The notes under the pieces are model-generated. The model was not told where the DNA came from. It did no database searches and saw only the letters and a list, made by a program, of their open reading frames with translations. Below are positions 3,175-36,900 of a DNA stretch of 42,644 nt, in pieces. This DNA is from a virus, in the IMG/VR virus record IMGVR_UViG_3300033148_004505, positions 1 to 42,644 of that record; one strand, given 5' to 3'. Each line of letters opens with the position of its first letter. Within the stretch, counting starts at the first letter, position 1. The translations under genes and the position numbers were made by a program.

Positions 3175-4245
3175 ATGGATGAGAGAGAAATGAGAGAATT
3201 GTTTAAAGCTACAGCTGCTATTAATACCCCTGAGGGTTTAATGGCTTATAAGGCTTTTGCGGCAGCTTTAACTACTCCTATCCTTCAAGCTATTGAGCGT
3301 CAGTCTATTATGCGACAGTTGTTTACTGTTGAGAGGCTTGGTCCTGGGGCACAAGCGTCTTATCCAGTAGCGGAGGATTTTGAAATTCCGGTGTGGGTAT
3401 TGCCAGGACTTGGTTATGTTGCTCAGAATTTTATTGAAGGTATAGGGGAAGAAGTCTACGTGCCTACTTTTAGTATTGATGCTTCTGGCGATTGGAAACT
3501 TAGTTATGCTAGAGATTCTAGGATCGATATACCAGCCAGGGCTGCCGAAAAAGCTGCTAAGGCTATTGCTGATTATGAAGAAGAGTGTGGTTGGCGGGTT
3601 ATTATACCGGCTGCTACTTCTAATTTCCATGGTAAAGGTTTATTAGGTTCTAGGCCTGCTCCTATTTATGAAATTAATCCTGCATCTACTGGTGCTGGGT
3701 ATTTGTCTAAAGAATTGATCAATAAAATGATTGTTGGATTTAAACGGATAGGTAGAACATTGACCGATCTTTATGTTTCACCTGAAGATGCGGCTGATAT
3801 CCGTGAATGGACCGACACTGATATTGACCCCGTTACTAGAAGGGAAATTTTTCAGGCTGCTGGTATGGGATCTATTTGGAATGTGACATTGCACGAGGTG
3901 CAACATTTAGGAGCAACTGGTTTGTATAATATTAATGGAAATGGTTCAGCTTATGGTAAATTTATAGCTGATGGATCTAATAATTTTAATGCTTATAAAC
4001 TTGATAATCCTAATATTACAGCTGCCGATGGTACTGTTAGTACTTTAGGTGAAACTCAGATTATTGGTTTTGATCTGAGTGTGAATGATTCATTGGTGAT
4101 GCCTATTAGGAAAGAGTATGAAGCTTACGATGATCCGACTTTACTTCGTGTACAAAAGCAAGGGTTTTTTGGATGGCAAGAGTGTGGTTTTGCAATTTTA
4201 GACCCAAGGATGTTAGGTCTTGGAGTAATTGATAGATCATTGTAG
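3175..4245 (+). CDS. major capsid protein
   Basis: A 356-residue protein starting at ATG 3175, placed 9 nt after GGAGG. The frame also offers GTG 3136 (13 residues longer) and ATG 3166, but those lack a properly spaced site. The helical N-terminus is followed by a region with mixed helices and strands (IERQSIMRQLFTVERLGPG, LYVSPEDAADIREW, WQECGFAILDPRMLG) of the kind seen in HK97-fold major capsid proteins. Length, position after scaffold, and a hairpin right after the gene fit the most abundant head protein. The family call rests on overall pattern and gene order, not on an alignment. Confidence 0.8.
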   Translation: MDEREMRELFKATAAINTPEGLMAYKAFAAALTTPILQAIERQSIMRQLFTVERLGPGAQASYPVAEDFEIPVWVLPGLGYVAQNFIEGIGEEVYVPTFSIDASGDWKLSYARDSRIDIPARAAEKAAKAIADYEEECGWRVIIPAATSNFHGKGLLGSRPAPIYEINPASTGAGYLSKELINKMIVGFKRIGRTLTDLYVSPEDAADIREWTDTDIDPVTRREIFQAAGMGSIWNVTLHEVQHLGATGLYNINGNGSAYGKFIADGSNNFNAYKLDNPNITAADGTVSTLGETQIIGFDLSVNDSLVMPIRKEYEAYDDPTLLRVQKQGFFGWQECGFAILDPRMLGLGVIDRSL

Positions 4246-5170: not shown

Positions 5171-6661
5171 ATGGTGAATTATCGTAAAAAGCATTGTAAA
5201 ATATGTGGTAGCTTATTTAAACCTATTAATCCAAATCAGAGATATTGTTCTGATAAATGTAAAGAAGAAGGAACTAAACAATTAGCTAGAATTAGGGATA
5301 GGCGTAGAAATAGAAAAAAGTATGGGTATAAAGAGTACCATAGAAAATGTGAAGCATGCGGTAAAGAATTTACTACTTATTATAGTAAAAAACGTTATTG
5401 TGGATCAGAAGAGTGTGAGAAAGAACGCATCTGTAGGAAGAACCAGAAAATTTATAAAAGGCTTGGTAAAGAATATTCACGAATTAAGTATAGAAAATAT
5501 TATGAAAATAATAAAGAGCTTTGTAGGTTACGTAAGGCAATTAAATACCGTGAGATACACAACATAGATAAAGAATATATTCCTAAAGGGTTTCACAAAC
5601 ATACTATAGATTTTGTACGTGAGTATGTAGAACAGTTTGGCTATAAGTTATTATCTAATGAATACGTTAATAATGATACTCCTATAAAGCTGTTATGTCC
5701 AGAAGGGCATGAATGGGAAACAACATTTCATAGATTTAAGGACGCATCAGCTAGATGTTTTCGTTGTTATGTGTCGAATAATTATACGTCTAAACCAGAA
5801 CAAAAAGTGTTAGATTATTTTAAAGAGCATTATCCAAATCTTGAATTAGTTCATTGTGACCGTAGACAGATAGCGCCTAAAGAGTTGGATTTATATTTTC
5901 CAGAGTATAGAATCGCTGTGGAGATATGTGGTTTGTATTGGCATAGTGAAATTTCTGGAAATACGCCTAAATCGTACCACTATGATAAATTAATGGAGTG
6001 TTATAAAAAAGGTATACGTTTGATAACTGTTTTTGAAGATGAAATTAATAATAAATTTGATATAGTTATGTCTAGGATATTAACAGCTTTGAATTTAATT
6101 GATAAAAAATACTATGCTAGTCAATGTAATATTAAAGAGATAACGAATGAAGAAGCTAATGAATTTTATAAGTTGTATCATATACAGGGTTCTACACAAG
6201 CGATTAAATCATGGGGGTTATTTTACAGTAATCAATTATTACAAGCAGTAAGTATAGGTAAAGTTATCAGAAAACATACTTCGTCAGATGGTGTTATAGA
6301 GTTAAAGAGGTTTTGTACTAAAAATTATGTTACTGTAGCGAGCGGATTTTCTAAACTATTTAAAGTCATAAAAGAATACTGCAAACTTAATAATTTAAGT
6401 ACTATAAAATCTTATTGTGATATGCGATATTCTAATATTTTTAATCCTATTTATGAAGTAGTGGGTTTTAATTTGATTGATTACACAAAATATACTCCTC
6501 ATTATATAAAGAATGGGAAAAGATTTCGAAATATATCTTTACGTAAAACGGCTGAGGAAAGGAAACCAGGTTTGACAGAATTTAAATTGAGACTTAGACA
6601 AGGATATGATAGGATATGGGATTGTGGTCATAGAACATATGTATATAGTATAGAGGATTAG
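5171..6661 (+). CDS. Vsr-like (PD-(D/E)XK fold) homing endonuclease
   Basis: A 496-residue protein. Residues 1-85 hold two Cys4-type ribbons (CKICG...YCSDKC, CEACGKEF...YCGSEEC), then a basic linker. Residues 155-200 are one copy of a treble-clef-like repeat (FGYKLLSNEYVNN...CPEGH...CFRCY). Residues 208-300 are the nuclease: PEQKVLDYF, KELDLYF (E238, D240), AVEICGLYWHSE (E251, H258) and ITVFEDE. This arrangement matches the EDxHD/Vsr-fold homing endonucleases such as I-Bth0305I. The C-terminal domain ends in IWDCGH, a signature shared by all three such genes here. It lies 22 nt after the HNH gene and 2 nt before the next gene. It probably acts as a selfish nuclease with no virion role. Confidence 0.8.
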   Translation: MVNYRKKHCKICGSLFKPINPNQRYCSDKCKEEGTKQLARIRDRRRNRKKYGYKEYHRKCEACGKEFTTYYSKKRYCGSEECEKERICRKNQKIYKRLGKEYSRIKYRKYYENNKELCRLRKAIKYREIHNIDKEYIPKGFHKHTIDFVREYVEQFGYKLLSNEYVNNDTPIKLLCPEGHEWETTFHRFKDASARCFRCYVSNNYTSKPEQKVLDYFKEHYPNLELVHCDRRQIAPKELDLYFPEYRIAVEICGLYWHSEISGNTPKSYHYDKLMECYKKGIRLITVFEDEINNKFDIVMSRILTALNLIDKKYYASQCNIKEITNEEANEFYKLYHIQGSTQAIKSWGLFYSNQLLQAVSIGKVIRKHTSSDGVIELKRFCTKNYVTVASGFSKLFKVIKEYCKLNNLSTIKSYCDMRYSNIFNPIYEVVGFNLIDYTKYTPHYIKNGKRFRNISLRKTAEERKPGLTEFKLRLRQGYDRIWDCGHRTYVYSIED

Positions 6662-14930: not shown

Positions 14931-16403
14931 GTGCGTAAGTATACTTATGAAGAGGTAAAGGCAGCGTTTGAAAAAGAAGGCTACGAATTGTTGTCTGGCA
15001 AATATGTAAACTGTAAAACTAAGTTAAAATATAAATGCCCATATGGACATATATATAGTGTATCTTTTGAAGGCTGGATGAAGGGGCGTAGGTGTTATTT
15101 TTGTAGAGCCAACATTAAATTAACTACTCAATACGTTAGAACAGCTTTGGAAAAAGATGGTTATGAGTTATTAAGTGAATATAAAAACAGCCGTGTTAAA
15201 TTTAAATATAAATGTCCAAATGGACACATAGGGTACATTAAATGGGATCATTGGAGAGATGGACATAGATGTTCTGTTTGTGCAGGAAATGTAAAAGTAG
15301 ATAAATCTATTATCGAAAAAGAATTTCATAAAGAGGGTTATTGTGTATTAAGCGTATTCAGCAGTAGAGGAAGAACTAGAGTTAGATATAAATGTTCAAA
15401 TGGGCATATACATGATATGTATTATTATAATTGGCGCAGGGGCTATAGGTGCCCAACTTGTGCTGGAAACGTTAAAAAATCTTATACATATATAAAGAAT
15501 GCAATTGAGTCTGAGGGTTATAAATTATTGTCTAAAAAATATATCAATAATAAATCTAAATTAAATTTAATATGCCCTAATAATCATTTATATAAAGTTT
15601 CGTGGGATGAGTGGAATAGGTTAAATTCTAGGTGCCCACGATGTGGTAAAGTAGGAGAATCAATACAGGAAGAGAATTTATTTAAATTTATTTCTAAATA
15701 TGGAAAGTTTATACGAAGAGATAGAGCGATATTAAATAATAAAGAGTTAGATTTTGTAAATTATGAATTTAGATTGGCTATTGAGTATTGTGGATTATAT
15801 TGGCATTCTAATAAATTTAAGAGAAGAAATTATCATTTAAATAAATTGGAAGCTTGTTTAAACAATGGCTATAAGTTAATTACTATTTTTGAAGATGAAT
15901 GGGTGTTTAAACCAAAGGTAGTGATGTATAAATTAAGAACTATATTTAACGATGTTAAAAATTTTGAACTTGATAAACACCACATTAGTAAAATTAATTA
16001 CTTATACGCTAAAAAATTTTTTGATTGTTATTCGTTTAACAGCATTGATGTTTCTAGTATTACTTTTGGTATGTTTGTAGATGATTTATTGGTATGTGCT
16101 GTTAATTTTGTATATGACGATGTATGGATTGTTAATGATATTGCGTTTTTATCTAACTATTATAATATAGAGAGTGTATATATAATATTGGATTATTTTA
16201 AAGATCGATATAATATTTCTGAGTTAAAACTATATGTTGATAGAAGATGGGATATATACGATTTTAATTCTTATGGCTTTGCATTATACAAAATTATTGA
16301 ACCAAAGTATTGGTATATTGAGAAGCAACGTCGTTTAGATAAGAAAGTTGGTAAATTTGGGGTATGGGATTGTGGTTATAAATTATTCATCAAACATTAT
16401 TGA
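14931..16403 (+). CDS. Vsr-like homing endonuclease with four zinc repeats
   Basis: A 490-residue protein that opens with GTG directly after the previous stop. Four tandem repeats of about 60 residues (1-60, 61-120, 121-180, 181-240) each follow GYxLLS...NxxxKxxYKCPNGH...W..W..G.RCPxC, a treble-clef-like zinc unit. The nuclease follows: KELDFVN (E272, D274), LAIEYCGLYWHS (E285, H292), ITIFEDEW. The end is VWDCGY. It is a paralogue of the 5171 and 18154 genes. Several zinc repeats per protein suggest modular reading of a long DNA target. It lies between the tail-terminator-like and tube genes, a conserved locus that suits homing. Confidence 0.8.
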   Translation: MRKYTYEEVKAAFEKEGYELLSGKYVNCKTKLKYKCPYGHIYSVSFEGWMKGRRCYFCRANIKLTTQYVRTALEKDGYELLSEYKNSRVKFKYKCPNGHIGYIKWDHWRDGHRCSVCAGNVKVDKSIIEKEFHKEGYCVLSVFSSRGRTRVRYKCSNGHIHDMYYYNWRRGYRCPTCAGNVKKSYTYIKNAIESEGYKLLSKKYINNKSKLNLICPNNHLYKVSWDEWNRLNSRCPRCGKVGESIQEENLFKFISKYGKFIRRDRAILNNKELDFVNYEFRLAIEYCGLYWHSNKFKRRNYHLNKLEACLNNGYKLITIFEDEWVFKPKVVMYKLRTIFNDVKNFELDKHHISKINYLYAKKFFDCYSFNSIDVSSITFGMFVDDLLVCAVNFVYDDVWIVNDIAFLSNYYNIESVYIILDYFKDRYNISELKLYVDRRWDIYDFNSYGFALYKIIEPKYWYIEKQRRLDKKVGKFGVWDCGYKLFIKHY

Positions 16404-16519: not shown

Positions 16520-18097
16520 ATGGCTAGTAGAAATAGAATTATATTTGCCTCACAATCTGTTTGGTGTAACGGGAGTATTTTATATAGGGTGCAAACACTT
16601 GGTAGTACTACTACCTTTACATCAGAAGATATTTTTGAATTAGGTCATCTTGACATTGTAGATGTAGTCGATGATGTCCCTGCTGTTGCTGTAACTTTGA
16701 ACACCAACGATTGGGGTGACGTCAGAACTATGGCTATTCTTGCTCAGGTGGCACCAGACAAAATTACAATGAGTGGCACTGCTGATTCATCTAATGCGAA
16801 TTTGGTGGTTGTAGACAGCGATAATCAACCTACTTCTACTTATTTACATGGCGTGTCGTTAGCGGATTTCGCTATTGTCTGTGGTAATTTGCCAGGTGTT
16901 TCGTTGTGGGCTCCTGTTCAGTCAGAATGTGATTTAGGTACTTTGGCTAATAATATTGATCAAACCTTGTATATGGATGAGGTTTATATAAATAGCCTTG
17001 AATTTGGGTATACGACTGGAGCGAATGCTACAGAAAATTATGGCGCAGAAACTGACCAAAAGATGTGGTTATTGAATGATGGCCGTTTTGTTAATTGGGA
17101 GGAGCTAGCTTACACCGATTTTTCTGGCGGACATGCTACAATTGCTTCTGGTGTTACTATAGCTACATTTTCTGATGGTAGTTTTGGATTTTTGAGGACT
17201 GATGATAATGGTGCTCGTGGTGTTACTTTTTATGATGATAGTGAAGGCGAGATGTATAATGTTGCTGTTGTGAGTGGTACAGCAGCTACGTTGGATAATT
17301 TTGTGTATGATCCTGCTACGCATAGATTATATGCGCCTACTAATTTAACTATGGCAGCTGGAGATAAAGTTTTTGCGCTTTATGCTGCTAATGGTTATAC
17401 TCAATCTACAGAGAATAAATATTTTGACATTTTAGATTCTATAAATAGACCTGATACTATAGGCGCTGTTAGACAGGGGCAGGTTGAAATTTATATTGTT
17501 TCTGATAATGATACTTCTTATCGGAATGCATGGCGACTTACTGGGTGTACTATTACTTCAGACTTGACTCGTGAAGCGTTGGCTGAATTAGGACATTTAG
17601 GCCCTTATGATAGGCCGTTGACACTTCCTATTCCTATAACTGTAACAATAGACACTACAGCTGGTGATTTGGAGCACTGGTCACGCTTTGCTGATAGATA
17701 TTCAGAATATGATGCAAATACTATGACAGAAATAGACCTTGCTGACTTAATGGCGTCAGACGACCTTAAACTTGTTGTTAAAGTGTTTGCGCAGACTGAT
17801 GAGGAGGCAGGAGGTACTGGTGCTAATAGGAAAATCGCAGTTGGTTCAGATTTGATCGGACAAGCGTATTGGCATAATGGAGTAAGAGGTATATATGCTG
17901 CTGGTGACCGTGAGTATGCTTTAAAGACAATTATTGTTGAGCATTTAAAGATTACTGATGAAGCTTACACGCTTGATATGGGAGCCAATGCAACGCAATC
18001 GTTTGGGTTTAGATCAACAAACGATTTATACGTTGTTAAAGGTGACTTAGATATTACATATATTACTAGTGGTAATAAAATTAGACGTAATAGTTAA
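16520..18097 (+). CDS. major tail tube protein with internal duplication
   Basis: A 525-residue protein with a strong AAGGAGG site. Two halves share signatures in the same order: ELGHL (40-44 and 356-360) followed by P-x-VTL/VTI and an acidic/Gly turn, then GANAT (167-171 and 488-492) followed by Y/F-G. Between the halves lies a 130-residue insert that may be an extra surface domain. Position after neck genes and before the chaperones and tape measure identifies a tail tube protein. Common tube proteins are 150-250 residues with one barrel and build six-fold rings. A double-barrel chain could build three-fold rings, as reported for Thermus phage P74-26, which has a very long tail. No sheath gene is seen. 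Confidence 0.75.
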   Translation: MASRNRIIFASQSVWCNGSILYRVQTLGSTTTFTSEDIFELGHLDIVDVVDDVPAVAVTLNTNDWGDVRTMAILAQVAPDKITMSGTADSSNANLVVVDSDNQPTSTYLHGVSLADFAIVCGNLPGVSLWAPVQSECDLGTLANNIDQTLYMDEVYINSLEFGYTTGANATENYGAETDQKMWLLNDGRFVNWEELAYTDFSGGHATIASGVTIATFSDGSFGFLRTDDNGARGVTFYDDSEGEMYNVAVVSGTAATLDNFVYDPATHRLYAPTNLTMAAGDKVFALYAANGYTQSTENKYFDILDSINRPDTIGAVRQGQVEIYIVSDNDTSYRNAWRLTGCTITSDLTREALAELGHLGPYDRPLTLPIPITVTIDTTAGDLEHWSRFADRYSEYDANTMTEIDLADLMASDDLKLVVKVFAQTDEEAGGTGANRKIAVGSDLIGQAYWHNGVRGIYAAGDREYALKTIIVEHLKITDEAYTLDMGANATQSFGFRSTNDLYVVKGDLDITYITSGNKIRRNS

Positions 18098-18153: not shown

Positions 18154-19800
18154 ATGTATAGACATAGTTTTAAGTTTGTAAGAGAGGCTTTTATTAGGGA
18201 GGGGTATAGATTATTAAGTAGTAAGTATATTAATAATAAAACTGTTTTAAAATATATATGTGGTAATGGACATATAGGTTATATAAGATGGTATAGTTGG
18301 ATTGCTGGTAAACGTTGTCCTGAATGTAATAAAGTTTATAGACGTAACGCTATAAAATTAAATATATTAAAGAAATTAAAAGCTAATAAGTTTAAGGTAT
18401 TAACAATTAAACATGTTAATAATAATTATTTAATAACAGCTGTTTGTAATAACGGACATAAATTTACTAAAACTTGGTATAAATGGAAGGCTGAGTATTG
18501 TCCTAAGTGTAGATTGCACGTAATACCGCTGGCTGCTATTAAGCAAGCGTTTGAATTAGAAGGGTATACATTATTAAGTGCTTTTTACACTAACAACAGA
18601 ACAAAATTAAAGTATAAATGTCCAAACGGGCATATACATGCAATATCTTGGAATAAGTGGTTATTAGGTAGAAGATGTCCTTTTTGTTCTGGTAAAGCAA
18701 AACATACTTTAATGTATGTGAGTGAACAGTTTAGTAAAGAAGGGTATACTTTATTAGAAAAAGAATATTTAAACTGTGCTCAGAAATTGAGTTATGTATG
18801 CCCTAATGGGCACAAGCATTATATAACATGGAGAAATTGGGTTGGCGGACACCGTTGTCCTTATTGTTATGGTAATAGATTAGATTTTGTTGATGTAAAA
18901 ACGGAGATAGAGTCTGCTGGGCATACATTACTTTCTACTGAGTATTTTAATAATAAACACCCTTTAACTATTAAATGTAAGCATGGACATATTTTTAAGC
19001 GTACTTTTAGTAATTTTGGGCATAATAAGTCTTGTCCGTTTTGTAAAACTAAAGAACGGTTGACTGCTCCTGAACGATTATTAAAAACTGTACTATTAGA
19101 TTGTTGTGTTGATGTGGTAATTCACGATAGAGATTTGATAGCTCCATACGAGTTGGATTTTGTATTGCCAAAGCATAAATTAGCTATTGAATATTGTGGT
19201 TTATATTGGCATTCTAATGAAAAATTAAATGATAAGTATTATCATCAGAAAAAATTAATAAAGTGTGGGTCTGTTGGTTATGATTTATTAACTATTTTTG
19301 AGGATGAGTTTGAATATAAATTTGATTCGGTAATTTCGCATATATATTTTTTGTTGAACAGCCAGCCAAACTTGGATATAGCAAGATGTAATGTTGAACT
19401 TATAAGTAAAGAAGATGTAGTTAAATTTTTTGATTTATATTGTTTAGGTAAATATGAATTAGGTTTTAAGCGTGTAGGAGTATTTTTTGATAATAGTTTG
19501 GTTGGGTGTTTAACAGGTGATAATAATTTAGTATATTTTTGTAATAAACCATTTAACTATTTTGATTTTGTAGATATATATGAAGTATTAAATAAGTTTT
19601 TTGGTAACGTAGCATTATACGTAGATGCAAGATTGTTTAATTTGGATGATAAATTGTATGACGTAAATAAGTGGTATTTTGGTTATTTTAATGGGGCTTA
19701 TGTACGCAATTCAAGAAGATTTGATGATGTACGGGGCCACATATTTGATTGTGGTTATTATTTGATCAAAGGAGGTATTTATGAAAGAAACAACGGATAA
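18154..19800 (+). CDS. Vsr-like homing endonuclease with five zinc repeats
   Basis: A 548-residue paralogue of the 14931 gene. Five repeats of about 60 residues (starting near 1, 68, 121, 181, 241) have the GYxLLS...YKCPNGH...RCPxC pattern; the second is diverged (NNGHKF...CPKC). The nuclease has APYELDFVLP (E333, D335), LAIEYCGLYWHS (E346, H353) and LLTIFEDEF, and the chain ends IFDCGY plus a short tail. The last 20 bases overlap the next gene and contain that gene's AAAGGAGG site, so insertion replaced or rebuilt the leader of the tail gene. The start has only a GAGG site. Confidence 0.8.
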   Translation: MYRHSFKFVREAFIREGYRLLSSKYINNKTVLKYICGNGHIGYIRWYSWIAGKRCPECNKVYRRNAIKLNILKKLKANKFKVLTIKHVNNNYLITAVCNNGHKFTKTWYKWKAEYCPKCRLHVIPLAAIKQAFELEGYTLLSAFYTNNRTKLKYKCPNGHIHAISWNKWLLGRRCPFCSGKAKHTLMYVSEQFSKEGYTLLEKEYLNCAQKLSYVCPNGHKHYITWRNWVGGHRCPYCYGNRLDFVDVKTEIESAGHTLLSTEYFNNKHPLTIKCKHGHIFKRTFSNFGHNKSCPFCKTKERLTAPERLLKTVLLDCCVDVVIHDRDLIAPYELDFVLPKHKLAIEYCGLYWHSNEKLNDKYYHQKKLIKCGSVGYDLLTIFEDEFEYKFDSVISHIYFLLNSQPNLDIARCNVELISKEDVVKFFDLYCLGKYELGFKRVGVFFDNSLVGCLTGDNNLVYFCNKPFNYFDFVDIYEVLNKFFGNVALYVDARLFNLDDKLYDVNKWYFGYFNGAYVRNSRRFDDVRGHIFDCGYYLIKGGIYERNNG

Positions 19801-20077: not shown

Positions 20078-20839
20078 ATGAGTGATGAAAGGAATATAAA
20101 TATAAACAATGATTTAAATTTGGATAAAAGAGAATTTGAAGACCCCATTACTGGTACAAAATACTATATTGCGCCTCCAACGGCTGACGATGTTCGTGGT
20201 GCAGATTGGCAATATAGCAAAACTTATACTAAGTCTTTAATTGAAGGTATTACTACCGCAGCTGAAATGATGGATATTTTAATGCGGAGAGGTGTAATAG
20301 GGCCGGAATTTGAACAGCGTCAGAAAGAACTTACTGATATATTATCAGAAAAAGTAGAAGCTTTACAAAACGCTAGAAATTTGGAAGAAAAGCAAGCTTT
20401 AGCTTTTGAAGTTGCACAGGCGCGCGAGGAGCTTTTTAATTGGAATCAGAGACTTAATGGCCCTATGGCTAATACATGTGAACAAATAGCTGATGATGCA
20501 CGTTTGGAGTACTTAACATCGCGAATGGTTCGCAATGAAAAAAACGAACGTGTATGGGATGATTATTCTGATTTTTTGACAGATAAAAACCAGGCTTTAA
20601 CGATGAAAGCTCGTTTTGAGGTTATGTTATACTTGCAGGGATTAGAGTCTGACTTTCTTGAAAAAACTCCTGAAGCTATGGCGTTGCGTGAAATCGAGGA
20701 AGAGATACAGAACAAGGCTGATGAGATTTTGAATGAAATAGAAAAACGTGTCGACGAAGATGATTCTAAATCTAGTACAACTAAGAATATGAAAAAGACT
20801 AAAGGTACACCTAAAAAGCGTGGCGGTAAGAAGAAGTAA
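20078..20839 (+). CDS. tail assembly chaperone-like protein 1
   Basis: A 253-residue protein with GGAGGAGG upstream. An N-terminal beta segment (FEDPITGTKYYIAPPTADD) leads to helices with ADWQYSKTYTKSLIEGITTAAEMMDILMRRGVI, and the tail is Lys/Gly-rich. The place between the tube gene and the tape measure is that of the gpG/gpGT-type chaperones, which coat the tape measure during tube growth. It shares a helical layout with the next protein, suggesting duplication. No canonical X-XXY-YYZ slippery site is seen at the end. The next gene is in the same frame after TAA and one codon, so any fusion would need stop readthrough. Confidence 0.55.
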   Translation: MSDERNININNDLNLDKREFEDPITGTKYYIAPPTADDVRGADWQYSKTYTKSLIEGITTAAEMMDILMRRGVIGPEFEQRQKELTDILSEKVEALQNARNLEEKQALAFEVAQAREELFNWNQRLNGPMANTCEQIADDARLEYLTSRMVRNEKNERVWDDYSDFLTDKNQALTMKARFEVMLYLQGLESDFLEKTPEAMALREIEEEIQNKADEILNEIEKRVDEDDSKSSTTKNMKKTKGTPKKRGGKKK

Positions 20840-20842
20840 CAT

Positions 20843-21856
20843 ATGGAATTAAAGATTGATGAGATTGAAAGATATATAGAAGAAATTACTACTAGACGAC
20901 GATTAGTTGAAATTGATAGTGAATTATTGTTTTTTAGACAGCCATCTACGCTATTGTTACAGCAGGCTCGATTTGTACGTGATAGAGAGTATAAAAAGGC
21001 GCTGAAAGATGGGTTTTTGTCTAAGGAGGATATTAAGAAGGTTTTAGAACAGCGTAATATTATTTCTGATAACGATAAAGCTAGATTAACTAAATTATAT
21101 AGTCAGTTGGAAGCTCAGAGGGTGTTGTTGGCTAAAACTACTAAAGTTAAGGCCAATCAAGAAAGAATTAAGAATGTAATTGCTAAATTAGAAAGTAATA
21201 TAGCTGAGATAGAGAATAAGGAAAAAAGTAAATTGAGTATGTCAGCTGACGTTAAAGCTGAAGAGTCTAAAATTATTTATTTATGTTGGGCCTGCACTTA
21301 TTCATATGAAACCAATGAATTGTATTGGATTGATTTAACATCTTTTTTAGAAGAGAGGCGTTTGGGATTTAGACAGAAAGTTTTAAATGAATTTATTGTA
21401 TTTCATAGCGGATTTTCTACTGATATTATTCGGGCTATAGCTAGAAGCAATTTATGGCGTATTAGGTATATGACAAGTATAAAGACGTCTGAAGCCGTTT
21501 TTGGTGTTCCGACATCTGAATATACGTCTGACATGTTGAACTTGTTATATTGGTCTCATTATTATCAAAATATTTATGAAATGTTGCCTGAAGATAGGCC
21601 TCCTGATTTTATAATTGACGATGATGAGGCACTAGATGCTTTTATGGAAGATTATTATAAGGAATATGAGAAAGAAACCGCTGCTAGGCGCGATAAAAAA
21701 CGTTTAGGAAATTCTAAATTATCAGCTTTTGATCAAGAGGAAGTTATTGTAACACGAGCACATGAATTGTATGAAGACATTGAGTATGATAAACCACGAG
21801 AAGCACAAGTTATTAAGGATAGGAACATTATTAGAAAAAGAACCCGCCGAGGTTAA
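20843..21856 (+). CDS. tail assembly chaperone-like protein 2
   Basis: A 337-residue protein starting 3 nt after the preceding stop, in the same frame and without a good ribosome site, so reinitiation is likely. Residues 35-105 repeat the pattern of the previous protein (RDREYKKALKDGFLSKEDIKKVLEQRNII), followed by a coiled coil and an enriched aromatic region (IYLCWACTYSY, LNLLYWSHYYQNIYEM). The C-terminus is charged. Directly upstream of the tape measure, it is the second chaperone candidate. Confidence 0.5.
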   Translation: MELKIDEIERYIEEITTRRRLVEIDSELLFFRQPSTLLLQQARFVRDREYKKALKDGFLSKEDIKKVLEQRNIISDNDKARLTKLYSQLEAQRVLLAKTTKVKANQERIKNVIAKLESNIAEIENKEKSKLSMSADVKAEESKIIYLCWACTYSYETNELYWIDLTSFLEERRLGFRQKVLNEFIVFHSGFSTDIIRAIARSNLWRIRYMTSIKTSEAVFGVPTSEYTSDMLNLLYWSHYYQNIYEMLPEDRPPDFIIDDDEALDAFMEDYYKEYEKETAARRDKKRLGNSKLSAFDQEEVIVTRAHELYEDIEYDKPREAQVIKDRNIIRKRTRRG

Positions 21857-21941: not shown

Positions 21942-24900
21942 TTGCCACCTACCGATAAATATACTATTCTATTAAAAACTATTATTGATAATCCTAATAT
22001 AGATAAAGAAAAGAAAGACCTTATTGCCCAGTTTGTTAAAGTGGTAAAGGCCATAGAAAAACTGTCTGCTGTTACTGAACGGACAGCCAAGAAAGCTCCT
22101 ACCTCTACTGACATTTCTGTAGATATTAGAAAATTATTGAAAAGGTTAGGTATTTTAGAGGATTTAAATAGTAAGTTAGGAATATTAATAAAACAACTAG
22201 GAAAAGTTGGCGCATCGGAGCAGGTAAAGCCTCTTATTGATGAATTGCGTAAAGCATTGAATATAGAGTCGGTTGTTTCAAAGCTGGATAAAATAAATAT
22301 TGTTCCGGCTGTAAGAGATTTATTGGGTGAATTAGTTAGATTACGTAACGAAGTTAAGAAATTAAAAGATCCATCTATATCTAAAGATTTAGAAGAATTA
22401 TTAAGAGTTTTATTAAGCAGCTCTAAAAATAATGTTAAAATTACAAATTTATTAGAAGAATTAAAACGTAAACTTAATATTAAAACTTATAACAAACCTA
22501 TACAAATAAATAGTCCTGAATTAGAAGTTGCCGGTAGAACATTAAAATTAGCAGGTAAGGATTTAAGCGAAGCGATCGAAAAATTAAAGCGTAAACAAGC
22601 TGTTTTATTTGATTTAGAGACGTCTGAGATAATTAAACGTGGTATTGAAAAGGGTTTAGCAAAACATATTAGACAGATTGGTTACCAGAAAGGCACTATT
22701 AATCAGTTATTGCAAGGAACTGCTAAACGTGGAGAGATTTTTATTAAACCATCTAAGCGGGTACAGGAATTATATAATAAAGGGGAGATAGACAAAGCGG
22801 TAGAAGCGTATAAAAAAGAGTTAGGAGATTTAGGTGCTGCAAGCGTGGATTTAAAAGAAGAATTAAAAAGGGTTATGAAGTATGGTAAAGAGTTGGAATA
22901 CGCTTTACAAGAGTTTAAAGATATATTGAAAGATAGTTCAACTGTTATAGGGCATAACATTGCTTCTTTTGATTTGCGTATATTAGATAAAAAATTTAAA
23001 GAGGTAGGCATTAAATTAGAAGGAGCAGTGTCTAACTACATTGATACGTTAGAATTAGCAAGAAAAGAATTTCCTGAGAGGCCATCAAAATCATTAGAAA
23101 GTTTTAAAAAGGATTTTGAAGCAGCTGGTATAAAAATACGTGATTTTGGTAGAGAAATGCATGACGCTTTGCATGATACTGAAGTGGCTCGATTGTTATT
23201 ACGTGCAGAAGCGAAGATAGGTAAGGAATACGTAGCTGCGAAAACCGGATTAGTTACTACAATTAAGCAAGCAGGAAAACAGTTAGCTAACGATGTTAAG
23301 GAAGCAAGTAAAAGTTTTAAAATATTAAGTGATGTTAATATTGAAACCGCTGATGTTGTTAAAAAGGCTAGAAAACAAATGAAGCGGTTACAATTAGATA
23401 TTAAAGATGTTAGAACTTTACGTTCTGGTCTTCAAACTTTTGATTTTAAACCTATGACAATTAAGCCAACTCCTACTGGTATGGATTTGCGTACTCCGCC
23501 AGGAATACCTGGTATGGAACGTACTGTGGCATTAGTACGTGACATGTCTAAGTCGTTGTATAAATTACAAGAGACAATTATTAAAAGCCTTGAAAATGGT
23601 TTATCAAAAGGGATGGAAATTATTAAAGATGAAGCTGGAAATGTGTTTCAATTAGCTAAAGGCGGCAGAGAGTATGAAATAAAAATAGCTAACGTTAGAC
23701 AACTTACAAAGGATTTAGAACGTATTTATAATAAAACAATACCAGGCGGGGCTACTCCTAAGTATTTAATTAATTTATTTAAAGAAGCTTATGTAAGTGC
23801 TCAACTGTCTAAACACATTGATGAAAGTAGGATGGCTGAAAAAGTAGCCATTAGTTTACGTCGATTGTCTTCTGAAGAAGCAAACAATTTAGGTCGAGTT
23901 GTTGGTCAGTTGTATACTAGTTTAAAACAAGGCAAATTGAATATTCAAGATATTGCAAAACGGCCTGATTTATATGATTTATATAAAAATTTAGTGTTAG
24001 TATCAGAAGCAGAGGAAAAATTAAATCAGCAATATATTAGACGTTTAGCTATCCCAGCTGCTAAAATTTCTAAACGTGGTATAGTATCGTTTGAAACCAA
24101 ATATGGGTCTGAACGAGTTGCTTCGCAGTTTGCGACTATAACTACTGGTTTAGAAAAATTGGTTAATGAATTAGAACGTATAGGCGCACCACGAATGCAA
24201 GTATTAGAATATAGACAGCAAGTTGGCGCTTTGCCTTTACGTATACGTTCTGGATCGCCCGAAGAAGCAAAAGCTAATAAGCTTGCTTATGAATTAATGC
24301 AAAAACTTGTTGCAAAAGGTGCTACAGCTTTTACTCGTGAAGGATATCAACGCGCTATTGCATTACGGAAGTTAGAGCTAAAACAGTTTACACCTGAGCA
24401 AGCGCGAGAGTTTTTAAATACAGTTAAAAGTTTAGATGATTTACGTGAGGAAGCTAAAAAATTAAAAATAAGTGCTTTAGAAGCTGCTAAAGCTTTGGAT
24501 GAAATACATATTGATAATTTTTATGATATGTTAGAAAAGTTGTTTTTGAAAGGTCGTCCAATACCGTTTCTTGAGCGGCAAGCTAAAAGATTAGGCTCTC
24601 CATTTGATCAAAGTGTTAGGAGAGCTATATCAGCTGTTGTAAATGAACTTCAAGGTTTATTGCCGTTAGCTGAGCCGGGTAGAGTTAAACGAGAAGCTTA
24701 TCAAGAAAAACTTTTACGTGTTTTTACTAGAAAGCCTGTTGAGGAATTGAGGCCTGAAGAACAAAAGAAAGTTATTATTGAAACAAATCTATTATGGAAA
24801 GATATATTAGAGCGTTCTAAAAAACTGCAAGAGCCGCTTATTCGTGCTAAACCATATTTGGGGCAATTTGAAGCTACGTCTTTAAATTTGAGTGACGCTG

Positions 24901-27900: not shown

Positions 27901-30900
27901 CAAACCTTATTAAAAAACAAGGCAGAGCTTTTGTTGAGTCTGTTAGGTATCCGTTTACTGGCACTTTAAGTGTGCAGCCTAGGATAGCTAGATTACTGTC
28001 AGCACTTCCCAGTAAATATGCTATTGCTGAACCTGGTATGCCTCAGTTAGATTTAGCTAAACTAACTAAAATTATAGGAACTTTAAGAGAATATGTTGGA
28101 GTTGTTCCTAGAGAAAAAAGGGTTTATTTATCAAAAGATATTAAGAGTTTAGTGGAACGTAGAGAGGAAGAGTGGGCTAAAGGTACTGAAGAAGGAGCTA
28201 AAAAAGCTAAAGCATTAACTGAAGCTATTGAAAAATTATTAAAAGTTATTAATGATGCTACACCTAAGTTTTTAGCGCATGAACAAAAATTAGATTTTGA
28301 CGGTGATGCGTTATTTATACATACTGGAGCATTAAAAGAATCACGTAAAGAGATAGAGGCTCATTATAAAGCATTACAAGATGATGTAACTTCTGTACGT
28401 ACATTATTTAGATCTGTGTTTACGGCTATTAAAGAGGGCGAAACTAAAAGCTTAGCGGAGATGGCGTATATTTTTGGTAAGAGACACCCAGCTGAACAAG
28501 GCTATGCATTTTTAACTAAACCATATATACGTGAGAAAGTAGCGAATTTAAAAATGCCTGAAGTTATGCAGGGACTATTTTCGTATCAAAGCGCTGCTAA
28601 AGATATTAAAAAAGGATCTAAAGAATGGAGGGAGGCTGTACAAAAATGGTCTAAAGAATTTTTAAAAACGGAAATTTTACCAGAAGTGTTTAGTAAATTT
28701 AACGTAAGCCCTGAGCAGCAAACGGAATATTTAAAAAAAGTTGATGAAAGCAATCATGGTTTTATTAAAGCCTCGTCAGGTTTGGAAGATGCTATTAATT
28801 CTATGGCTAAAGAATTGGTACGGCAACAGTTATGGGAAAAGAAATATACTGATGCTATTTCTGGACAATTATATAAATTGCATACTGGACAGACAGTAGA
28901 AGGAATAAGTCGATTGTTACGTATTTCGGAAGTTGAAACAGGGTTTGGAAAAGGTTTAGCAGGGACTGGTAAATTTGTTGCACCCCCATCTCCTGAATTT
29001 TTAAAAAAATGGCCTAAAGCTAGTGTAGCTTTAGCTGGTAAACCTGTTGAAGAGTTTTCTGCTAGAGTAAATGAGATTTTGCGTTTTATTATCCAAAAAG
29101 GTATGGATGTAAAACACGCTGGTGTAAAGGCTGTTGGGACAATTGTATTGGAAAATATCGCTAAAAAAGGCGGTATTAAAACTATTATGGGGGCTATAAA
29201 ACAGCATGCCGATGATTTTGATGAGTTATTAGATTTTGAACAACAAATAATTAATTCTGCTAAGTTACGTTTGGGTAAATTATCGACTAAGTTATTAAAA
29301 AGAGAGTTACAGCTATTTGAACCGGATGTTGATTTACAGACACTATCGTCTGATAGAGACAAGTTAATTAAACGTATTGTTAGTCATTTGGGTTTGGAAG
29401 CCACATTTAAAGAATTGTATAGCCAAATTGAGCGTCAAGCTATAAAAGCTACCGAAGTAGCGTTAGCTAAAAAATTAAAAGAGTTACCAGAAGGCCGTAC
29501 TAAGGCAACATTGCTACAAGACATTGCTGCAGCTGGGGGTTTACGGCGGTTAGCAGAAGAACGTGTATTGAAGCAGGCTAAGTCAGAACGTGGAATAACT
29601 ATACCGTCAACTATTATTGCTAATTTACAGCCGTTGTACCAAATGCGTACTAGTATGGAAACATTAAAATCTGTGGCTGGTAGAACTCGTGTTAAGTTAC
29701 CAGTTGAGCAATTAGTATTACCAAAGGGTGAACAAGGCAAAGAGTTTGCTCAACGGCTTGAAGAAGCTACTAAAGCTGCACATGTATTAACTTCAGCTAT
29801 GGAACAAGCAGCGCAAGCTCCTAAGCGAGGTATGCATGGCTTGATGGTATTATCTGCAATTAAAACTAGGTATAAAGAATTAAGTGAAGTAGAAGAATTT
29901 GTAAAACAACTACGCGGTACAGGTGGAATTACTGGTGGGCCTGGCACATTATTTGGAAATTTGTTGAAACAGGTGGCAGCTGAAAAGAATATTAATTTGC
30001 AACAGCGCCTAATGAATATTAATGATTGGCTAGAAACTTTGCCCAAATTAATTAAAGGCGTAAAATCTAAAGTACAGCCAATATATGAAAAAGCAGGTTT
30101 ACCGCCATTAATGCCTCAAGAAGAAGAGGCTATTAAAGCTGAATTTTTAGCTAAAGCTGGAAAAAATATTATGGCTACTGCTAAAGAATTTGCGCGTAGG
30201 GTATTAGGCGGTGAGGTAAAACCTGAACAATTTGAAAGGACGGTGGCTGAGATTGCTAATACACTTAGTAATTATTATGAATTTATAGCTACTATTCAAG
30301 AGAAATTACGTAGAATTAGTGAAGTTGCGAATGTTGTTCCATTACAAAAAGAATATATTAGAATAGCGTTTAAAGGTGTAGATCCTACTAAAGGCATAAA
30401 GGATTTTATTGATAGCACTGAGGATTTAAACCGTCAGGTTGTTAATAGCTATAATATAAGTTCACATGAGGTTGAACAATGGTATAAAGAGGTACAACGT
30501 AGGGATATTAGTAAGCAAATTAAAGACGATACTGCTAAAACTAAGGAATTAGTTGATTCTGTATCACAAGCTGCGGACGATTTAACCGAAGGGCTAAGCG
30601 ATGTTATTATAAGAAGGAAAACTAAAGCTTTACGTAATTTATTGAAAAAAGCTGAAGGTGGACAATTAGCTGAACAAGAAACAGAGTTGTATAAACTGTT
30701 TAGAGCTAGTGCATTACATAGAGGAGGAACATTTGGTGGAGGGCGTCAGTTAGAGGCTATTGTTTCGGAAATGGTTGGTGTTCCTAAGAAGTACCCAGTA
30801 TTGATGGAATTAACTAGTGCGCGTGGTATATTGTTACATAGGAAGATTCAAAAGGAGTTTTTGCGGAAATTTCCTAAAGCAGAAATTGAGAAACCTATTG

Positions 30901-33900
30901 AAGATTTTGAGAGCGGTATTACTGGACATTTAGACGTTTTATACGAAAAAGCTGGTAAGAAAGTTATTACTGATATTAAAACTATTTATAATACACGGAC
31001 ATTTGAACGGCTTAAGGAGATTGCCAAGGATATTACTAATAGACGAATTACAATTCAAGATAAATTAGATGAATTAAAATCTCAAAATGTTATAAGTCAA
31101 ATCGATAAAGATGTTATTCGTAGATTAGAAGATTATTTAAGTCAGATAAATGTTTATTTAAAACATGTTGAAGGAGCGGTAGGAGAGATATTATTTGTTA
31201 GTACTCAGCGGCCTGAAGAAAGATTTACTATTCCTATTGGTGAGTTTGATCCTGTACGATTTAAAGCAGATATAGCGACTGTTAGGAAAGCACAAAGTAT
31301 TGTAGCGTCAACTATTGATGCGATTAGTAAAGGAGAACCAATACCTAAAGATTTATTTAAGAGTATGCCAGAAGTTTATGATTATGTTGTGTCTGAGTTG
31401 AAAAAATTAGGGCCTGATGAATTTATTAAAAGATTGCCTAAACGTCCTGTAGAAGAGTTACAAAGAAGCGCTAGGGAGATTTTGAGTACTTTAACTGAGC
31501 AAGAAACTCAAGTAGCTGAGCGATTAAGTAGAGAGTTGTTGGATTACTATAGGCGTTTGGGAGGAACGAGAGGAGGAGAAAAGACATTTCAATATTGGCT
31601 GACAACTAGTGCTGGTGGTGGAGGGGGTATGGGATCAGTACCTCCTGGAGGAGGGGTTCCTCCTACTTATGGTCCACCTCCTGGTGGAGTTGGTGGCGCA
31701 GGCGGTGAAGGTGGCGGCTTTGATGATGAGTATTATAGACGTATTAAAGATATAATTGCTAAAATTAAGCGTGGTCAAGAATTAAGTAGCCAAGAAAAAA
31801 TAAAATTATATAATACGTATAAAGAGTTGCAAGACATTGTTTATAGTATGTCTGAGGATGACGAGTTAAATAAACAAACGATTCAAACTCTTAGGGCAAT
31901 AGAAAAGTATATTAATGAAGCTGGATTAACTGAGGCTAGTATTAATAAAGTAAAGGAACAATTACGCCGTTTAGGTGAAATTAAGGGTACTATACCTAGT
32001 TATGGTGAATTTAGAAGGTTTAAACCAGAGTATAAAGAGCCAATGCGGCCTGAAGCTAAATTTAGAAATTTAAAAGCTATGTTTCAAGAGGCGGTTAGAT
32101 ATTATGGGTTGGGGGATGTTAAGGAAGGTGAACGGTATAGTACAGAGATTTATAAATTGTTGAAAAAAACACGTGAAGAAGGCCCATCAGTTGAGTTAGC
32201 TAGGCAAATACGTGAAGCAATAATGAAATTGCCAGAGGAAAAACGTGGTGGGTTGGTACGTATTTGGATGCTTTATAAAAAAGAGGTAGGTGAATATTTT
32301 TTAAAGAGGTTGGAAGATTTGAGGCAAAAGATTGACGAGGAAGCGTCTGGGCCAGAAGCTGAACGTGCATATAGAGAGTTTGAAGCTGTTGTAAATAGAT
32401 ATGTTAAGAATATTGAGAATACACTTGGTCAAACAAGCGATATTTATACTAAGGCTGTAGATAGTGCTAAAAAAACTAAATTTGTTGCTCCTGAATTAGC
32501 TAAGTTGGTAGGTATTTATCGTGATCCAGAACAGTTGGCACGTTTGATTGAGCAGCGTGCTATGATTAGGCCTAAATTTAAGTCTATTTATGATATGTTG
32601 GTTGGGGATTTGAAATCTGGTAGTATTAATGAGATGTTGTCTCCTATATATAAAGTTCAAACAGCTTTTGATATGCTTGCGAAATTAGACCCTAAGCTTA
32701 AAGCTTTAATTGAAGATGCTGATTTATTACGTAGAATGGGAGATAAAGTTTTAAATGCTTGGGATTTTAAAACATTATTGGAGGGAGTTATACAATTAAG
32801 AAACGCTTTAGAAGCTTATAATAGATTACAAATTGGTGGGTTTGCTGGCCCGGCTGAAGAGTTTACCATTGAAGCTAGGAAGAATTTAGAAGAGACTATT
32901 AAATATTTTAGACAATTAGAGCGAACGCTTTCAACGTTAAGTACAAGATCTAAATTAGGAATTGTAAACGTGCCGCAGTTTATTGCGCCAGAGGCGCAGC
33001 GTTTATTGCATAAGCGTAATATAGCGGCTATACGTGAGTATTTTAAAAAGGCGGCTGGTGAGGGTGGCCCGCCTATAGGTAAAGCTTTTACATATAGATA
33101 TAAAGTAATGGACCCAGCCACTAAACAAGTTTTAGATAGTATTTCTGTTGAATTTAGAAAGATAGGAGAAGAAAGTTTAGAGGCTGGTAAAAAAGTAGGT
33201 ATTTTTACCGAAAAAACTGAAGATTTAGTGAAATTAGTTCAAGGTAGGAGAGGTTTTGGTCAAGCTTTTGGACGTGTTGTTAGATGGGGCGTGGCTAGTA
33301 GAACAGTTTATGGTTTAGTTGCGGCATTTAAGGAGATGGTAAATGTTATTGCAGACGTGCAAACTGGAATGGCTGTTTTAAGACAAGTTATGAATCCGCT
33401 TCAAACTGATTTTGATGCATTACAGCAGTCGGCTGTTAATTTTGCAAAAGAGTTTGGTTTGCCGATTAGGCAAGTTATAGATGCTATGCGTGTTTTTGCA
33501 CAACAAGGTTTAGCACAAGCTGAAGTTATTGATAGAACACGAAGTTCGTTGTTAGCTGCTAACGTTACAACGTTGGCAGCAGAGGATGCTACTGAAGCTT
33601 TAACTGCTGCAGTTAAGATATATGGACAAGAAGGGGAAAGTACTATTAGATTTTTGGATGCATGGACTGAAGTTGAGTCACGTCATGCTATTACCTCAAA
33701 GAATCTAGCATTAGCTTTAAGAAAGAGCGCTGCTGCAGCTAAAACTGCTGGCGTAACTTTTGACCAATTAAACGCTATTGTTACTGGTATAGGTGAGACT
33801 ACGAGGCAAACTGGTAATGAAATAGGTACTAGTTTGCGTTTTATTTTTAGGCGGCTTTATTCTAAAAAAGCACCACAAATGTTAGAAACGTTAGGCATAC

Positions 33901-36900
33901 CTGTTATAGGAGAAACCGGAGAATTACGTAGTGCGTTTGATGTATTGGGTGATTTGGCTGATAGATGGGGCGATTTAACTAAGGTACAGCGATTAAACAT
34001 TGCTACAGCCATTGGTGGTAGACGGCATTATAATAGTATCATTGTTTTAATGGAGCATTGGAATGATGTTTTAGATACATTGTCTGATAGTATTAATTCT
34101 AAAGGGGCTGCTGAACGGCGAAACGCTATAATTATGGAGACTTATGCTAAAAAGATTCAGCAGTTACGTGCTGCAGTTGTTGAATTACAATTACAGTTCG
34201 GCAAATATGCATTACCTATTGCAACTAAGTTTGTAAATGGGATGCGATATCTTATAGAATCTATATCAAACATTTCGCCTGCGATTAAAGTTGCCGCAGC
34301 TGCTTTGGGCGGGTTTTTCTTAATAATGACTAAAGGACAAGGAGTTATTAATAGACTTACTGATTATATAAAGTCATTTAGCTCTATGACTTCTTTAGTA
34401 AAAAGTGATTTTATGAAAAAATTGGGTGCAGGTATTTTTGAAGTTTTTGGAAAAATGCCAAAAGGGCTTAATGTTAATGTTACTGGATTAAAAGTAATAG
34501 GCGAGTCAGCTAGAAGTATACGTGATTTGGAGACTGTTTTAGGCAAAACTGGCTATGTTTTGGCTAAATTTGGTAGAGTTTGGAATGATGTGTTGTCTAT
34601 TATGGCGCAAAAAGGAGTATCTGTTTTTGAAGCTGTTGGTAAAGTGTTTGGATGGTTAGGAAAAGTTATACGTAAAGTTGCAGAGGCGTTTGGGTTTTCT
34701 AATAAACTATTAACTGCTATTTTTACTACAATGTCTGCAGGACTGAAGAGCGGGGAAAAAGCTTTTTATAGTTTAGCTAAAGCTGCTGGTGTACCTGCAG
34801 TAAAATTTCAGGAGTGGGCACAAATTAATAGCACTTTTGTCAAATCGTTTGGACCATTAGCCGCCACCGTTGCAGCAGGTATACCTGTATATGGTAAATT
34901 AAGCGATGCTATTAAACGAGTTACGTTTTCTGCTGAGGGGTATGAAAAATCATTAAGCGGTATTAGACGTAAACAAAGTAGCGAATTACAGACCATTAGT
35001 GATTTAGCTAAACGTTATGCTAATTTGGAAAATAAGCTACGGAAAATTAATAAATTGTCTGCAGAACCTATTACAAAAGAATTAGCTAGAGAAGAGTATA
35101 TTAGTCCGATTTTACAGTATGATAAATTGGTTAGTGATTATAGTGATTTTGCTAATGAAATAGCAAGAACAGCACCAGATCTAGTGTTATATTTCGATAA
35201 ATTTGGTAATGCTGTTTTAAATTCTGGTTATAAGTTTAATGAAGGCATTGAATTAATGCGTAAGGCCAAGTTGTCTGAAATGGCTGATACTAATATAAAA
35301 GCGTTAGAAAAATTTGCAGAAGAATTAACTAATTCTAGCACGTTTTCTGCTAGATTTAGGTCAGAGTTGAAAAAGTTTGTTAAAGAGGTTCCTGCCGCTG
35401 GTCCTATTTTAGCTAAATTTATTCAAGTTTCTCCAGCACAAGAACTTAAAGAAGCTGTAGACGCTATGAATAAGATTTTGGAGGTTAAATTACCGCTGAG
35501 TCCGGCTTTTGATAAGCTATTTAATAAATATTATGAACAATTAATTAAAGCTAGGAATAAATTTAGGGAAGCTTATAAACGTTTTGGTGAAATATTGAGT
35601 GAACTGCCGCCAGGTTTAAGTCCAGCTAAAGTTACGTTGTTATTAGATCGTGAAATTTTTAAACCGATGTATGAAATGATAATTCAACAAAGACGTAGTT
35701 TGCAACGATTGGCGGAAAAAGGAATTATAGATTGGCGGGATGTTTTGGGAGTTCAAGTTTTACGTACTTTACATCCAGAACGACAGTTAGATTTTGCTGG
35801 TGTGCTAACTAAAGAAATGGCTCGACAAGCTGAAATTATTGAGCGTAAAGGAGAAGTTTTTGCTGGTGATACGATAGTTTTTATGAAAGATATAGATAAG
35901 TATATGAAGGTGGCTGGACAACAAGGTATAGTAAAGTTTAGAGAGGGTTTAGGGTGGTTTGTTGAAGTTTTTGATAAAGAATTACGACAAGTTAGAGAAG
36001 TACCATTAGATGCGGTTGAACAATTTATAGACAGTGTATTTCCAGCACACCGCATGGTTGAAGCTATTGATAGGAATTTAGATATACTTAAGGAAAATTT
36101 AACTGGCGCTGCTGCTGGAATGGTTGGTATAACTCAGCAAGAGTTTAGAAAATTATATAATTTAGGTCCTAGATTTTTTGAAAACATTCCTACAGAAGTA
36201 CTAATGCAAACAAGTAAAGGTATAAATATAACTACTGGTAAGTTTGGTGAAATACCTTTTAAGGAAACATTTGCTAAAGATTTAAAGAAATATTTTTTTG
36301 AGCCATTAGATCAATTAAATCAATTAACTGAACCATTAGCTAAACGTTTGGGCGCACAAGCTCCATTATCAAAAGGACTTGAGGAGCAAATTAATAAATT
36401 ACAAAAGTTAATTAGTAATAATCAAATTTATGTACAATTAATCAGAACATACGCTGAATTAGAAAAAACTATAGCTAGTATTACCAGAACTGTAGAAGCC
36501 AACATAGCTGTTGAAAAAGAACGGTTTAAAGTTTTAGAGCATACAGCGGGTTTATTGCGAGGACTATCGGAGCAGTTAAAAGATGTTGATTATGGTATAC
36601 GAGATTTGTCTAAGCTATCAATTCAACAAAGAGCATTTATACGTGAACTGGCATTACCTCCTGAAAGAAGAGTAATTACTGAACGTACTAAAAATATACA
36701 AATAGCTATGTTGCGTAGAGCTGGAGTAATGCAAGAGTTAGAAGCGATAGTCAGACATGCAGCGGAGGCTAGATATATTGTTAGGCAAAGTAGAGAGGCT
36801 GGTACGCAGTTAACACCACAAGAATTGGAAGGAATGAAAGAAGCTGTTGCTAAAGGTATAAGTCCAATAGAGAGTCGTAAGCTTAAAATACAAACAGATA

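Follow-up and report, generated by a model that had tools for sequence, protein, structure and literature searches.

In phage T5, the tube protein pb6 carries a duplication and fusion of the tube domain and assembles as pseudo-hexameric trimers, with one domain lying outside the duplicated N-terminal part (PMC5717097). The tail tube protein (TTP) of phage P74-26 contains two similar domains with 16% identity and also forms trimeric rings, and in this phage a tape measure of 5,006 aa is paired with a tail almost 1 micrometre long (PMC10034513). The window analyzed here is the whole 42,644 nt stretch, positions 1 to 42,644 of the IMG/VR virus record IMGVR_UViG_3300033148_004505. A first-pass annotation had proposed that it encodes an internally duplicated tube protein of the P74-26 kind next to an ultra-long tape measure, and the tube gene was delimited as follows.

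16520-18097, plus strand, gene of the major tail tube protein (525 aa; a single chain with two tube barrels)
16580-17083, plus strand, predicted barrel 1 (residues about 21-188; AF2 elements E24-32 to E182-185; family alignment)
17084-17479, plus strand, predicted beta domain between the barrels (residues about 189-320; AF2 pLDDT about 80-96 over most of it)
17519-18049, plus strand, predicted barrel 2 (residues about 334-510; AF2 elements E342-348 to E503-507; aligns to barrel 1)

The duplication had been read from two short motifs, and their positions were all exactly right: ELGHL at residues 40-44 and 356-360 (nt 16637-16651 and 17585-17599) and GANAT at residues 167-171 and 488-492 (nt 17018-17032 and 17981-17995). 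When residues 1-310 of the window protein were aligned with residues 311-525 by the Smith-Waterman method, a single collinear path was obtained, pairing residues 30-185 with 346-506. The score of 56 was equaled or exceeded by 7 of 1,000 shuffles. Taken from this protein alone, the local alignment is modest, which favors reading the repeated motifs as short words that arose by chance or convergence in a single-barrel protein. The relatives strengthened the evidence for a repeat considerably. IMG/VR searches for related loci returned 8, then 54, 66, and 80 loci, many of them from the same contigs; the relatives lie on contigs of up to 545 kb, plus one genome-bin contig. No shuffle in 200 matched the half-versus-half alignment in 25 of 36 members tested, and 24 of these 25 showed the same collinear pairing (about 18-190 with 334-506). 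The z-scores exceeded 10 at the top (L034, 10.7; L058, 11.3), while L062, L039, L037, and L014 showed no significant repeat on their own. The N-terminal and C-terminal profiles scored 29.8 in hhalign, above all 200 column shuffles (maximum 28.6) and the reversed control (14.3). An independent profile alignment gave 43.2 against a null of 18.9 ± 3.1 (null maximum 32.8), with 17 of 56 positions identical in its best block. In total, the duplication was seen across about 60 distinct relatives, most of them far above shuffled controls. Together with the two predicted barrels described below, the collinear family-wide alignment and the profile tests leave the chance reading with a negligible probability. 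Chance falls far short of explaining the repeat: the tube protein does contain the claimed internal duplication, of which the ELGHL and GANAT pairs are the visible tips.

The fold of the window protein was then considered. A first AF2 run on 9 sequences was poor (pLDDT 57) with weak Foldseek matches, so it was replaced by a run on 59 sequences, which reached pLDDT 85.2 and pTM 0.85 and predicted two barrels rather than one. The single-barrel prediction that the first-pass annotation had named as refuting its claim was thus not what the run gave. The predicted barrels share one order of elements: a strand, a low-confidence ELGHL loop, a strand, short helices, and strands, followed by a particularly long strand (146-165; 469-484), another that lies at GANAT or immediately after it (171-178; 492-500), and a final strand. 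The domain between them, which the first-pass annotation had overlooked, is less conserved (0.52 versus 0.74 and 0.69 for the barrels in the family alignment); its sequence is variable, and its length ranges over 132-199 aa. Foldseek against the PDB placed T5 pb6 (5ngj, 9iny) first at 6.8e-9, P74-26 gp93 (8ed0) second at 1.5e-7, then DT57C (8.7e-7) and the major tail protein of Acinetobacter phage SH-Ab15497 (8xan; 1.7e-6), with both barrels covered. The likening to P74-26 thus held at the level of fold. Single-barrel tubes ranked after the two-barrel ones and matched one half, and in BFVD many uncharacterized and some named phage proteins matched across both barrels. Over the whole chain, the TM-scores were moderate, at 0.34-0.38 by query with an rmsd of about 10; the middle domain accounts for part of this. 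In pb6, the extra domain is C-terminal, not between the barrels as in the window protein. The P74-26 TTP (348 aa) has a mere linker where the window's family has a domain of about 130 aa, and the SH-Ab15497 protein (307 aa) lacks a middle domain.

At the sequence level, the protein stands apart. Pfam and PHROG scans of the window tube protein gave no match, and tblastn with it and one distant relative found none among 50,697 phage records. The tube-protein profile had no match to PDB sequences up to E = 10, gp93 included, and hhalign with gp93 aligned 10 columns at E 0.51, so that no sequence homology to the P74-26 protein was found. In sequence terms, the tube proteins form a new family of a known architectural class.

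The part of the tail to which the protein belongs was also considered. Tail-tip proteins of T5 and DT57C were also among the fold matches (7qg9_G, 8hqz_L, 9ioz_A), as a two-barrel distal tail or hub-type protein of the same fold would predict. However, the fold scores were better for tube proteins than for tip proteins, and the gene lies upstream of the tape measure beside chaperone-like ORFs, the usual place of a tube gene, making a tail-tip role very unlikely. The main tube protein would have arisen by an old in-frame tandem duplication of a tube (gpV/Hcp-type) module, so that a single chain now carries two barrels on either side of a variable beta domain. Three chains would form a ring, three-fold by chain and nearly six-fold in shape; a trimer is the best inference here because the T5 and P74-26 rings are trimeric. 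As in T5 and P74-26, the rings would be stacked with the tape measure inside them, and the middle domain, given its variability, probably faces outward as decoration. Taken together, we consider it highly probable that this is the main tail tube protein, built from a module duplicated in frame, that it forms a three-fold, pseudo-six-fold ring, and that its duplication is independent of tape-measure length.

The tail genes downstream of the tube gene were examined next.

20078-20839, plus strand, probable tail assembly chaperone, between tube and tape measure, gene order kept in relatives
20843-21856, plus strand, another probable tail assembly chaperone, encoded by its own non-overlapping ORF, gene order kept in relatives
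21942-42644, plus strand, tail tape measure protein of 6,901 aa or more, interrupted by the assembly gap at 42645-42664
22803-23189 (also given as 22608-23189), plus strand, DEDD-type exonuclease domain (tape-measure residues 288-416; PF00929, 5.5e-13)
28293-28307, plus strand, DFDGD motif within the tape measure, in a region that is probably of RNA-polymerase type (double-psi barrel)
33426-34019, plus strand, PhageMin_Tail core, PF10145 (tape-measure residues 3829-4026; 6.3e-28)

The presence of a PhageMin_Tail core, which matches 59 phage records, in a long protein downstream of the tube gene and the chaperone-like ORFs identifies the tape measure. As in P74-26, the tube gene lies just upstream of chaperone-like genes and a very long tape measure. 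The ORF at 20078-20839 had no family match in Pfam and PHROG scans. By eye, the two chaperone-like ORFs gave the impression of tandem paralogues, but blastp similarity between them was nil. A PD-(D/E)XK-like motif (GHLD...ITDIKT) was noticed in the tape measure at about 30924-30983, by eye and pattern only.

The ultra-long tape measure beside the tube gene is real, and its frame stays open as far as the window reaches. The last nucleotide of the window directly abuts a run of 20 Ns (42645-42664) in the 67,051 bp record, and since the ORF runs into this gap, its true end lies outside the window. The gap is flanked by a 60 bp identical repeat (window 42531-42644; record region 42645-42777), and the next ORF past it, 42668-43819, matches the last 276 residues of the tape measure of a gapless relative. 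The flanking repeat and the C-terminal match indicate that the window holds an incomplete tape measure, whose full length is probably about 7,300 aa (7,531 aa in the relative G001) and which is probably split artificially in the record.

The first-pass annotation had suggested that fused barrels and giant tape measures co-evolved, with fused rings keeping very long tubes stable, and this idea was examined as well. Both groups with very long tape measures that were examined, the window's family and P74-26/P23-45, do have two-barrel tubes. Eleven relatives of the window's kind have tape measures of 7,473-8,639 aa, and one tape measure is split as 4,530 + 4,028 (G010). Shorter ones of 2,542 (G012), 3,587 (G007), 3,903 (G022), 4,554 (G015), and 4,651 aa (G013) occur in the family, and the longest reach 13,616 aa (G016, 211 kb contig) and 14,711 aa (G014, 545 kb contig), against 5,006 aa in P74-26. 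These two, about three times the length of those of P74-26/P23-45, are single open frames with no N, followed by further tail genes (G014, loci L234/L235/L248; G016, loci L224/L225/L246). The two-barrel tube was present in all family members with the tape measures listed, unchanged from 2,542 to 14,711 aa. In the tube-protein tree, length classes follow clades and short and long are interleaved, with several deep forks weakly supported. Outside the family, two-barrel tubes go with short tape measures in SH-Ab15497 (860 aa), T5 (1,219 aa), and probably Sansa (1,801 aa), whose tail subunit is two-barrel by fold match only; in the halovirus HVTV-1, taken as an extra control, no tail genes were annotated in the stretch examined. 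With a constant tube across lengths and short controls outside, barrel fusion neither requires nor tracks a giant tape measure. Joint evolution of the two is improbable and was rejected as a rule, but in some lineages a two-barrel tube may still be of benefit to a very long tail.

Tape-measure length would vary through cargo before the core (exonuclease, polymerase-like) and a longer part after it; this cargo, which the first-pass annotation had also overlooked, makes up some of the tape measure's length. If the whole chain measures, the tail of the window's virus would be about 1.1-1.4 micrometres and that of G014 at least two. Should length be set by nothing but the core and what follows it, about 9,060 aa in G014, the tail of G014 would still be about 1.4 micrometres at 0.15 nm per residue. 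A literature search for earlier reports of tape measures this long found none, which is not proof of their absence.

The cargo region was examined for a polymerase. In the window, LDFDGD lies at tape-measure residue 2117, N-terminal to the core at 3829, and a DFDGD motif is also N-terminal in the tape measures of P74-26/P23-45. Counting the window, 20 family tape measures were examined, and 17 of them hold LD[FY]DGD ahead of the core, mostly followed by xxxxH and preceded by R.P.T at a distance of about 100 aa; the motif is missing from the three shortest. This pattern corresponds to the surroundings of the catalytic aspartates of RNA polymerase beta-prime. PF00623 matched weakly in 7 of 16 aligned relatives' regions (best 4.7e-4, below the family cut-off), and a narrower scan of ten regions gave three matches at the motif and one upstream of it. 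The window's own tape-measure sequence had no PF00623 match, a profile search of the PDB with the region returned noise only, and the match to P74-26 was confined to the motif. P23-45 has a proven polymerase at the same place in its 5,002 aa tape measure, and P23-45 relatives without the polymerase exist (PMC10770324). A polymerase in the family's tape measures is likely. The chance is somewhat better than even that the family, whose tube is unrelated in sequence to that of P23-45/P74-26, is a second lineage in which a two-barrel (three-fold) tube occurs together with a virion-RNA-polymerase tape measure, its largest tails being the longest known.

The surroundings of the tube gene were also inspected. 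Three HNH or homing-type endonuclease genes (phrog_559, phrog_3339) lie inside the virion module:

5171-6661, endonuclease gene
14931-16403, endonuclease gene
18154-19800, endonuclease gene

Two of them sit on either side of the window's tube gene, which is intron-bearing in relatives. In at least nine distinct relatives (L047, L061, L111, L002, L007, L041, L050, L059, and L060), inserts of 0.57-2.35 kb split the tube gene at several nearby sites within codons 38-54, in the region of the conserved ELGHLDIVDVVDDVP stretch. An ORF of about 270-360 aa is present in most inserts, but the inserts of L047 and L061 have none. Rfam detected group I introns in five of seven insert-bearing relatives examined: three in a row in L047 (9098-9935), two in L061 (10080-10627), and in L111 (8302-9939) two above the family cut-off and one below, with matches below the cut-off in L002 (6.9e-8) and L041 (0.0016). 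The window's tube gene is uninterrupted, and Rfam found no group I intron in the window. Two relatives encode, away from the tail genes, a small protein of 165 and 135 aa, respectively (L244:4396-4890, plus strand; L245:4420-4824, minus strand), that resembles only tube-protein residues of about 411-486 (the QTDEEAGG...KT region); a role as chaperone, cap, or decoy is guesswork.

These results add to the duplicated tail-tube class a large family that had gone unseen in the phage and PHROG collections searched, and they separate two ideas previously lumped together, namely that the tube module is doubled and that tails can be extremely long. The tape measures of 13,616 and 14,711 aa and the stacked group I introns in tube genes are the more surprising by-products. 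If the family is indeed a second polymerase-bearing lineage, the viruses with these two tape measures would have tails well over 1 micrometre, longer than any known, and the polymerase would be delivered through the tube. Because one tube design is kept while the ruler varies almost six-fold, the family is a natural system for tail-length questions, suited to asking what sets or limits tail length and how a polymerase could pack into the tube and pass through it.
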